Positions 25,013 to 27,492 of a stretch of 64,000 nt of DNA are shown here, one piece after another. Source of the DNA: Vulcanisaeta distributa JCM 11217 (GTDB taxonomy: Archaea > Thermoproteota > Thermoprotei > Thermoproteales > Thermocladiaceae); contig NZ_BBBJ01000010.1 in NCBI RefSeq assembly GCF_001316005.1, positions 1-64,000 on the forward strand, written 5' to 3'. The position numbers were made by a program, and so were the translations under genes. Each line of letters begins with the position of its first letter. Within the stretch, counting starts at the first letter, position 1. Below the pieces are notes generated by a model. That model searched no databases, was not told the DNA's origin, and was given only the letters and a program-made list of their open reading frames with translations.

Positions 25013-26167
25013 ATGAAATTCGGCGTAAGACTCAGGTGCTTGAGGTGTGGTTATTCGGGACCAGGTGATGGCCCATTGTGCCCCAGGTGCGGCTTCCCGT
25101 TGATAACGGAGCCGAGGAGTGCATTGAGGATTGATAGGGAGAAGCCGAGCATCCTTAGGTATGCATCGGCGTTGAATTACGGCGATAGGGTTGTATCGCT
25201 TGGTGAGGGTTTCACGAGGATTAGGAGGGTTAATGGCGTGCTCATTAAGGATGAGTCTAGAAACCAACGGGGGGGTCCTTCATGGATAGGGGGGGCTCAT
25301 CAGTACTAATTAGTAATGCGGAGGGTGAGGTCAGGGTTTTGTTTGAGGAGGACTTCACGCTGTCAATAGCCACCTACGCCAATGCGGCGGGTATTAATGT
25401 TAGGGTTTATGTGAATCCTGACAGGGTTGGTGCCTACACAGAGCTCCTCAAACTATCAACCATGGGTAACGTGGTCATTGAATTCAGCGGTGGGAATGGC
25501 ATCAACGCATCCTATGGCGAGCCCTATTCCTTGATGGTGTTAAGACCATCGCCTACGAGCTTTATGAGCAGGTTGGTGAGGTTGAGGGCGTAGTGCTACC
25601 CATGGAGAGGGGTTACCTAGCCCTGGCAGTTTATGAGGGCTTTAGGGAACTGCGTGAATGGGGGGGCTTCATTGGTGACCTGCCGAGGCTAATACTCGTT
25701 AAGCATAGGGCTGGCAGAATGACGGAAATCAGTGATTGGCTTGTCAGGGCTGCTGGGGCTAGGGTTGTCGATGTTGGCGATGAGGAGACCATAAGATCAA
25801 TGATCGAATTGGCCAGGGATGGGATGTACGTTAAGCCCGTGTCCGCCATGGCATACGCCGTGGCCTCAACACTTGGTAGGGATTACGTGGTTGTTATAAC
25901 GGGTACGGGGGGGTTAAGGAGTACAGGGTTGGTAGGGAGCTCGGTGGGTTAACGAAGCTTCAGGAGGCCATACTCGGGGGGGTTTTGGAAGGCTCGAGAC
26001 CGTTAACGGCATACGAGGTTTGGGAGAGACTGGGTGGTGCGGCGACGGTTCAAGGCGTTTACAAGGCTTTGAACTCGCTCGTGAGGCGTGGCCTAGTGGT
26101 CTTTGATTACGAGGTTCGTGGTAATAAGAAGGTCAGGGTTTATCGTTCATTATCGAATTATAAATAA
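25013..26167 (+). CDS. Threonine-synthase-like protein lacking the PLP lysine, with zinc ribbon and winged helix
   Basis: Repaired length is about 375 residues. The N-terminal zinc ribbon (LRCLRCGY…PLCPRCGFPL) and fold-type-II PLP core (YGDRVVSLGEGFTRIRRVNG, LIKDESRNPTGSFMDRGSS) are those of threonine synthase. The family motif is SFKDRG with the PLP Schiff-base lysine; here it is SFMDRG. The phosphate-binding SSGNAG loop is replaced by EEDFTLSIA. Catalysis is therefore not expected. After the PLP fold comes a winged-helix region (LEGSRPLTAYEVWERLGG, VYKALNSLVRRGLVVFDYEV). Breaks lie at 25268 (a lost C), 25540 and 25920. It could be a regulator that kept a dead enzyme as ligand-binding domain. 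A true enzyme altered by base-call error is unlikely because two motifs are gone. Confidence 0.75.
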
Positions 26168-26238: not shown

Positions 26239-26272
26239 TTATTATTAATTAGTCTTGGTTGAGGTGGTTGGT

Positions 26273-27172
26273 ATGATGATTGAGAAGCTGCCTTCGACGT
26301 ACGCCTCAATACTTAATGCGCTTGTTGAGTTGTACATGATGTCTAAGAAGCCCGTTAAGTCTAGGGATATTGCTGAGAAGCTTGGTATTAATGAGGGTAC
26401 GGTTAGGAATTCCATGGTCGCCCTGAGGGCCATGGGGGGGTACATAGAGTCTAAGACTGGGCCTTACGGTGGCTATGTGCCGACGCAGAAGGCCCTTGAG
26501 TATGTTAAGATGCCTGCTAACACGGTCTTTGCTCTGGACATAGCCCCCCCCATATCGATTAATAAGTTGCCCACGAACCTGTACGTGACTGGTATTGAGC
26601 TACTCGACGTAATTAACCCGTTCAGTAATAGGGCGCTTGTGAGGGTTATTGGTGATATGAAGAATATTAGGATTGGTGATAATGTTAGGATTGGGCCTAC
26701 GGCGAATAGTAGGGTGATTATTGAGGGTGTGATTACGGAGAAGAATGAGGGGTTGAGGGAGTTGGTGGTCGCCATTAATAAGTTGATAGCAATACCGAAG
26801 GTTAAGGTTGAGATGTTGATGAGTAAGAACGTGATAACCATAAGGCATGACTCACCACTTAAGGAGGCGGCTAAGGTATTTGCCGAGAGGAAGATCAGGG
26901 CTCTCCCGGTCATTGATGATGAGGGTAAGATAGTTGGCTTAATAACGACTAGTGAAATAGCCAGGGCTTACTACGAGGGTAACCTAAACGCTAGGGTTGA
27001 GGATTATGCGAGGAGGGATGTGCCTACGATTGATAAGGAGGCCGACATATACGATGCTATGAGGCTCATGACGGCTAACAAGATCGGTAGGTTAATAGTG
27101 GTTAGTGGTGGTAAGCCCGTGGGCATAATAACAAGGACGGACATACTGCAGTACCTGGCATCACTTGATTAA
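26273..27172 (+). CDS. Winged-helix transcription regulator with CBS domain pair
   Basis: About 299 residues, intact. The N-terminal winged helix (residues 5-70: ILNALVELYMMSKKPVKSRD, then IAEKLGINEGTVRNSMVALR) is followed by a linker domain (ALVRVIGDMKNIRIGDNVRI). Two CBS motifs follow (VEMLMSKNVITIRHDSPLKE and VEDYARRDVPTIDKEADIYD), which in this archaeal group sense adenine nucleotides or similar ligands. The start is the double ATG at 26273/26276; earlier TTG/GTG codons are possible but lie at the predicted transcription start. It is followed after 11 bases by a zinc-finger gene on the same strand, so these may be cotranscribed. Targets are unknown. Confidence 0.88.
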   Translation: MMIEKLPSTYASILNALVELYMMSKKPVKSRDIAEKLGINEGTVRNSMVALRAMGGYIESKTGPYGGYVPTQKALEYVKMPANTVFALDIAPPISINKLPTNLYVTGIELLDVINPFSNRALVRVIGDMKNIRIGDNVRIGPTANSRVIIEGVITEKNEGLRELVVAINKLIAIPKVKVEMLMSKNVITIRHDSPLKEAAKVFAERKIRALPVIDDEGKIVGLITTSEIARAYYEGNLNARVEDYARRDVPTIDKEADIYDAMRLMTANKIGRLIVVSGGKPVGIITRTDILQYLASLD

Positions 27173-27183
27173 GTATTTTAAAA

Positions 27184-27492
27184 ATGCAATACTCCTTGTC
27201 AAGCATTAGGTCAGTCCACATATGCGAAATTTGTGAGGAGAAGCCGGCGGTGATTAGGTGCCGAGTTTGCGGTAGGTACGTGTGCAGCGACGACTTTGAC
27301 TATTCAATGAGCGTTTGCAGGGCCTGCTCAGCAACGCTTTGTCAGGTATGCCACTCAAGGCTTGCCGTTGGGCATTGCGCTAGGTGTGGTAGGTTGGTTT
27401 GTAGGAGGGATAGTGTTAGGGTTGGGCTTAGCAGGTACTGCATTGACTGCGCCAGGGAGTTGGGCTTAATCAGTGAGGTTAAGAATAAATAA
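27184..27492 (+). CDS. Small double zinc-finger protein (B-box-like)
   Basis: 102 residues with a dense Cys/His pattern: HICEICEEKPAVIRCRVCGR, YVCSDDFDYSMSVCRACS, then LCQVCHSRLAVGHCARCGR, LVCRRDS and YCIDCARELG. The pattern repeats, which suggests two similar zinc-binding units like archaeal B-box/AN1-style fingers. There is no enzyme motif. It lies in a probable operon: 11 bases after the CBS regulator and 15 bases before the next gene. A role in protein-protein or nucleic-acid contact is inferred. Confidence 0.8.
   Translation: MQYSLSSIRSVHICEICEEKPAVIRCRVCGRYVCSDDFDYSMSVCRACSATLCQVCHSRLAVGHCARCGRLVCRRDSVRVGLSRYCIDCARELGLISEVKNK

Follow-up and report, generated by a model that had tools for sequence, protein, structure and literature searches.

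The archaeal thiamin regulator ThiR uses a ThiN-like, non-catalytic enzyme domain as its sensor. In regulators of the MocR/PdxR type an enzyme-derived PLP-fold domain is combined with a winged helix, and these proteins control pdxST and B6 genes; their enzyme domain is a fold-type-I aminotransferase, and the family is described as widespread among Bacteria and absent from Archaea (PMC5320631). A survey from 2023 calls the B6 transporters of most species mysterious and leaves the regulators aside (PMC9997740). A cysH-thrC fusion is named in another article (PMC11237513). Literature searches revealed no title or abstract describing a regulator that resembles threonine synthase (TS); their coverage took in a minority of subscription papers and no bioRxiv preprints, and an earlier description is possible.

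Here we describe a gene of Vulcanisaeta distributa JCM 11217 which, like its short-form relatives in Thermoproteota, probably codes for a regulator, built on a dead TS, that controls the transcription of vitamin B6 genes. The window, i.e. the whole stretch of DNA analysed, comprises 64,000 nt of contig NZ_BBBJ01000010.1. The genome to which it belongs (G000, 2.08 Mb) has a completeness of 67%.

The gene in the window and its relatives

The following features, all on the + strand, were assigned within the window:

25013..26164, +, putative regulator gene with zinc ribbon, lysine-less TS domain and winged helix (ORF list; full-length alignment of intact orthologues)
25037..25090, +, Cys4 zinc ribbon, four Cys codons (Cys invariant in 19/19 aligned orthologues)
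25282..25284, +, Met codon (ATG) at the Schiff-base lysine position, NPTGSFMDR (non-Lys in 74/74 intact members)
25342..25359, +, FEEDFT stretch at the place of the SSGNAG loop (GN motif missing here in 38/38 short members)
25985..26164, +, C-terminal winged helix (TrmB E 3.4e-4, under the Pfam cut-off; orthologous piece modelled, pLDDT 85-91)
26051..26053, +, Gln codon at position 2 of the predicted recognition helix (covariation table; helix 151-163 of the model, Gln = 152 by count)

The frame of this gene shifts three times, and the ORF list gives pieces starting at 25013, 25282, 25593 and 25985; a profile search detected PALP matches at 25270-25494 and 25527-25901. Runs of exactly seven G or C occur at 33.1 per 10 kb in the window versus 0 in 39 kb from three one-contig relatives, and this excess looks like a systematic error of assembly or base calling by which genes are broken. 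Since such runs abound in the window and are absent in the relatives, the frame breaks are probably assembly artefacts. Relatives carry intact single-ORF copies of 364-413 aa with a conserved architecture of Cys4 zinc ribbon, fold-type-II TS domain and C-terminal winged helix. Over the entire window (1-64000) four-base G/C runs are depleted and seven-base runs are in excess.

The original prediction described a degenerate TS with Met instead of the Schiff-base lysine (SFMDRG). The ATG is indeed found at 25282-25284, and not one of the 74 intact members (38 short, 36 long) has the catalytic Lys at this position; orthologues with an intact lysine, named there as a refutation, were thus not found. 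The short members carry Ala (14), Met (13), Ser (6), Tyr (4) or Thr (1), the long members Arg (29), Thr (4), Met (2) or Phe (1). In the Vulcanisaeta group the ATG was identified by pattern in seven of eight loci, and the protein of the eighth (L071), which was missed by the pattern, reads SFMDR. The SSGNAG loop had rightly been regarded as replaced, FEEDFT being present at 25342-25359; the name "phosphate loop" given to it needs correcting. The Asn of the SSGN loop faces O3′ of PLP and the substrate, and the phosphate loop of TS is the later P-x-x-x-G stretch. GN is present at the SSGN place in none of the 38 short and in 35 of the 36 long members, and 35/36 long members also show G-x-G at the place of the phosphate loop. 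In the aligned short-form orthologues a Pro and a Gly are invariant at that place (19/19, matched to the TS loop by eye). Judged from these residues, the short branch appears more altered at the cofactor site than the long branch, which may hold PLP in the usual way still.

The alignment of 19 orthologues contains 41 invariant columns, including the four Cys residues of the predicted N-terminal zinc ribbon and five residues of the winged helix. Three short members match PF00291 (PALP) with 92.8, 90.4 and 57.7 bits (cut-off 35) and stay below every NCBIfam TS cut-off (best 144.7 vs 421 bits), while the long member L132 matches NF004170 with 698 bits (cut-off 421). The closest solved structures by sequence are threonine synthases, with at most 65 bits. 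A second, intact TS, for which the original prediction suggested a search, was traced in relatives: genes with both SFKDR and S-S/T-GN exist in eight of nine related genomes searched. In the own genome an NPTGSFKDR gene is located 11 kb past the window (L002, C10:75028), and its frame also seems broken.

A winged helix added at the C-terminus had been proposed from the window, and modelling of an orthologue bears this out. The last piece in the window reaches 20.8 bits with TrmB (Pfam cut-off 25.6; E 3.4e-4), and the long member L136 reaches 41.4 bits with PadR (cut-off 27). AlphaFold2, applied to a piece of a Vulcanisaeta orthologue, yielded a winged helix consisting of helices 121-130, 138-144 and 151-163 and strands 167-174 and 177-184. 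The pLDDT is mostly 85-91 over this part; the whole model has a mean of 59 and a pTM of 0.42, and its TS half, built on an alignment of five shallow rows, mostly stays below 50, so that only the winged helix is modelled with confidence. Foldseek returned a ScpB-like protein as best match (E 8.5e-4), and then winged helices, among them those of Stf76 (2mlg; TM by target 0.73, E 1.5e-3) and PadR (5dym; 0.61, E 5.4e-3).

A profile built from the 19 orthologues gave matches at E 1e-47 or better in 48 of 398 genomes of the phylum; among them are some long members as well as short ones from several families. In a tree obtained by quick search (90 rows, 323 columns) the 38 short members form one clade (SH-aLRT 100), and long members and true TS are not separated from each other. 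The TS rows were chosen by their SFKDR and S-S/T-GN motifs, and their Lys is therefore no independent finding. The window piece had no match in 11 genomes of genus g5, which we take to be Pyrobaculum, and no relative of the putative regulator was found on viral contigs.

Directly 3′ of the gene the window contains a CBS-pair protein with an HrcA-type winged helix (26255-27172, +; PF03444), an arrangement seen only in Vulcanisaeta-type loci. This neighbour had been pointed out in the original prediction and does adjoin the gene; it probably lies outside the system, and a link was rejected on account of its conservation in only 5/48 fetched loci, all Vulcanisaeta-type. A small archaeal protein (27184-27492, +) matches B-box-type zinc fingers barely above the Pfam cut-off (26.0 vs 24.1 bits).

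The palindrome and the genes behind it

Among 39 short loci fetched together with their flanks, 12 have the putative regulator gene immediately next to pdxS or pdxT (PLP synthase) and in the same orientation, and pdxS lies within 3 kb of it in two further short loci. Profile searches confirmed the identity of PdxS and PdxT on L115 and of PdxS on L290; other members were assigned by similarity clusters.

On reading upstream of pdxS a 12-bp palindrome, TTRAACGTTYAA, was first seen just 5′ of a TATA-like box; its form in the own genome is TTAAACGTTTAA. Exact copies of TTRAACGTTYAA precede pdxS in 18/22 regulator-positive genomes vs 0/33 genomes without a short member (Fisher 5e-11, kinship uncorrected), and copies with up to two mismatches in 22/22 vs 2/33. 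The region considered was 200 bp upstream plus 20 bp. As the genomes are related and thus not independent of each other, the Fisher p-values overstate the significance. Of the 33 negatives, 29 are more distant, three are Pyrobaculum-like and one further genome belongs to the window's family; a long member is present in three of the 33 (L185, L198, L220). L214 (upstream region N-masked), L196 and L204 (upstream region too short) and L215 (genome G001, with a site and no regulator found) were dropped from the comparison.

The own genome harbours exactly three exact sites, one each before the PPAT-like gene, pdxS and the permease gene:

C11:6848, 36 bp before the gene of a PPAT-like aminotransferase (in pieces), with a membrane protein encoded behind it
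C11:27686, 37 bp before pdxS
C13:29576, 38 bp before the gene of an amino-acid-type permease

The window itself has no site even at one mismatch, and autoregulation through this operator in the own genome was rejected. The closest NCBIfam family for a relative's aminotransferase is pyridoxamine-pyruvate transaminase (PPAT; 262 bits, cut-off 600). A membrane protein of about 500 aa follows the PPAT-like gene at L278:5228-6739 (+), with relatives in L271, L285 and L292. Neither Pfam (1e-5) nor NCBIfam (1e-15) gave a match for this protein, which resembles a permease by eye and is by its context a candidate B6 transporter.

The amino-acid-type permease, which matches amino-acid permease families (PF00324), is encoded in 21 of 60 genomes, namely in 20/42 with the regulator and in 1/18 without it, the latter being a draft. 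All 21 permease genes have the palindrome with at most two changes no more than 120 bp upstream. Of the 43 genomes with a short member, 27 encode PdxS; this permease occurs in nine of the remaining 16. G004, which lacks pdxS, has a one-base variant of the permease site at the usual place. Three more genomes without pdxS have transporter genes by the palindrome, of the ECF type in G055 and G082 and of the ABC type in G302. In G009, G033, G126 and G310 the regulator is present and no target was found; one G033 site ends about 130 bp from the contig end.

A search of 80 genomes for the exact palindrome detected sites in 31/44 genomes with a short member and in 13/36 without. Because sites also occur in these 13 genomes, it is the position of a site, and not merely its occurrence, that counts as evidence. 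Control counts revealed that several genomes contain many single-mismatch sites by chance. Among the fetched sites of short-member genomes, 20/31 precede pdxS, the permease gene, the PPAT-like gene, ECF S components or (G302) an ABC permease and binding protein, and 11/31 precede no such gene, five of them lying within genes. In the other genomes 0/7 fetched sites precede any of these target families. The identities of the targets were set by profile on representatives. Two drafts, G001 and G006 (84-87% complete), have a site before pdxS or the permease gene, and the regulator was not found in them. At L290:2999-5398 pdxS and thiC are divergent with a single palindrome between them; joint control of B6 and thiamin synthesis is possible at this locus.

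The promoter geometry was compared in 40 upstream regions, 21 of permease genes and 19 of pdxS, the latter taken from the 22 positive regions with the three most degenerate ones left out. The palindrome is followed by YAA and then by an A/T-rich block with the consensus TATAAA from the sixth base. As this block starts at the sixth base, the palindrome abuts the BRE/TATA region, a place that suits a repressor blocking TFB as well as an activator recruiting TFB.

A residue of the winged helix changes together with the half-site. With TTGAAC, 20 genomes have Arg and two have Lys as the residue before the G/A-x-Y-K motif; with TTAAAC, nine have Gln and four Leu, and the mixed site of G314 pairs with Lys. 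This residue is number 152 of the model by count, the second of recognition helix 151-163, and the Gln encoded at 26051-26053 is predicted to read the third base of TTAAAC. For L120, L121 and L137 no helix was obtained by pattern, and L011 was misread by one residue (doubled G); in all, three genomes that have a site were unreadable or misread in this way. Residue and half-site both change twice on the tree, together (sign test p 0.5); with only two paired changes the covariation cannot reach significance.

The long branch

The long gene is followed, on its own strand, by a gene of a single cluster in 21 of 29 loci; Pfam identified one member of this cluster as an ECF S component (PF07155). 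Genes for an ABC ATPase and a membrane protein come after the ECF S gene in nine long loci, and an AIRS-type kinase is close by in nine others. The long gene, an ECF S component and an ECF-type ATPase or AIRS-type (ThiL/HypE-like) kinase occur together in L132, L133, L136, L142, L221-L227, L229, L230 and L232-L239; this cassette is a candidate for vitamin uptake and phosphorylation. An intact thrC, encoded on the other strand, neighbours the long lysine-less paralogue in L232 and L233 and likewise in L163, L164, L169 and L172.

pdxS is present in 5/55 genomes with a long member vs 182/343 of the rest of the 398 (p 1.5e-10, kinship uncorrected), where the 55 are defined by an NF004170 score of at least 357 bits and weaker full-length matches are uncounted. 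Its rarity would fit a control of B6 uptake, but, given the intact thrC beside some long genes, threonine or another vitamin is also possible there. NF004170, named "threonine synthase", has matches over the cut-off in 12 of the 398 genomes, all 12 with Arg at the Lys position, and the name of this family (PRK05638) is probably a misannotation.

Use of the short branch's operator by the long branch was rejected, as the three sites fetched from long-only genomes (L302-L304) precede none of the target families; within 110 bp upstream of 29 long genes no common palindrome was seen by eye. A wider reading is that all lysine-less TS-winged-helix proteins serve archaeal B6 control, with the short form reading PLP non-covalently and governing PLP synthase, salvage and uptake, and the long form governing ECF-type B6 uptake in archaea unable to make PLP. 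We put this forward tentatively, at slightly less than an even chance. If it were true, the operator would point to still unknown archaeal B6 transporters.

Proposed mechanism and comparison with known systems

The original idea of a regulator derived from a dead TS is strongly supported by the comparison of relatives, namely by the loss of the lysine, the modelled winged helix, the operator and the covariation of residue and base. At the level of genomes the link between regulator, operator and B6 genes is well supported. We propose that a TS without the Schiff-base lysine, equipped with a winged helix at its C-terminus, would bind the 12-bp TTRAACGTTYAA directly upstream of the TATA-like box. 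TS is dimeric, and the regulator is presumed to be dimeric likewise. Its targets would be pdxS(T), the amino-acid-type permease as candidate B6 transporter and the PPAT-like gene; in some relatives that lack pdxS they would include genes of ECF or ABC transporters. The remnant cofactor pocket most likely holds PLP non-covalently, and the level of free PLP would be read out in this way, with plentiful PLP turning down the B6 supply. Threonine, homoserine phosphate and PLP had all been named as ligands; for the subfamily of the window the genome evidence favours PLP or vitamin B6, and PLP itself seems a reasonably likely ligand. Shut-down by the PLP-bound form is somewhat preferred to activation by the apo form, because of the analogy with feedback.

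The regulator might instead sense threonine, homoserine phosphate or another amino acid, so that PLP enzymes and amino-acid metabolism would be co-regulated and the permease would be an ordinary amino-acid importer. The TS fold, the PF00324 match of the permease and the intact thrC beside long relatives in some genomes would agree with this. We nevertheless regard it as unlikely, since the targets that recur in the short branch are pdxS, the PPAT-like gene and transporters, sites precede ECF S components or an ABC importer where pdxS is missing, and by cluster no intact thrC lies next to the 31 fetched sites, not every gene there being named.

That a different protein binds the palindrome and the TS-winged-helix protein merely travels with the pdx genes is highly improbable. 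The two drafts with a site and no detected regulator would be explained by it, and DNA binding by the regulator is deduced from genomes; both drafts, however, are only 84-87% complete, the exact pdxS site is missing in 33/33 genomes without a short member, including the three Pyrobaculum-like ones and the one of the same family, and the residue-base covariation speaks for the TS-winged-helix protein. The broken frame in the window could finally suggest a pseudogene or a functionless enzyme fragment. Such a reading is hardly credible and was rejected on the basis of the intact, conserved ORFs in relatives of several families; moreover, the frame breaks accompany the excess of seven-base G/C runs.

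With a B6 regulator as the preferred reading, the operator singles out candidate B6 transporters, and proteins named "threonine synthase" become predicted regulators. The central claim is testable with one protein and one short DNA duplex. The regulator would be an archaeal counterpart of bacterial PdxR, reached from an unrelated fold. It shares with PdxR/MocR an enzyme-derived PLP-fold domain and a winged helix, and control of pdxST and B6 genes is indicated here by gene order and operator. MocR proteins are of fold type I with an N-terminal GntR-type winged helix, whereas here the fold-type-II PF00291 domain is the only enzyme domain found, the winged helix is C-terminal, a zinc ribbon is N-terminal and the Schiff-base Lys is lost. 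With ThrC the regulator has in common the zinc ribbon, the PALP domain (PF00291, 92.8 bits for an orthologue) and the NPTGS-x-x-DR motif; it differs in the missing Schiff-base Lys, the missing SSGN loop, the extra winged helix and scores below the NCBIfam TS cut-offs. The architecture is the same as in NF004170/PRK05638, i.e. the long branch, but the long form is longer, keeps the GN loop and has another gene context. The C-terminal domain is of the same fold class as the winged helices of PadR and TrmB, for neither of which a fusion with a PLP-enzyme domain is known. Like ThiR, the protein would be an archaeal vitamin regulator with a non-catalytic enzyme domain as sensor. Vitamin and fold are different, and while the enzyme relative of ThiR makes the sensed compound, the enzyme ancestral to this regulator used PLP as cofactor.
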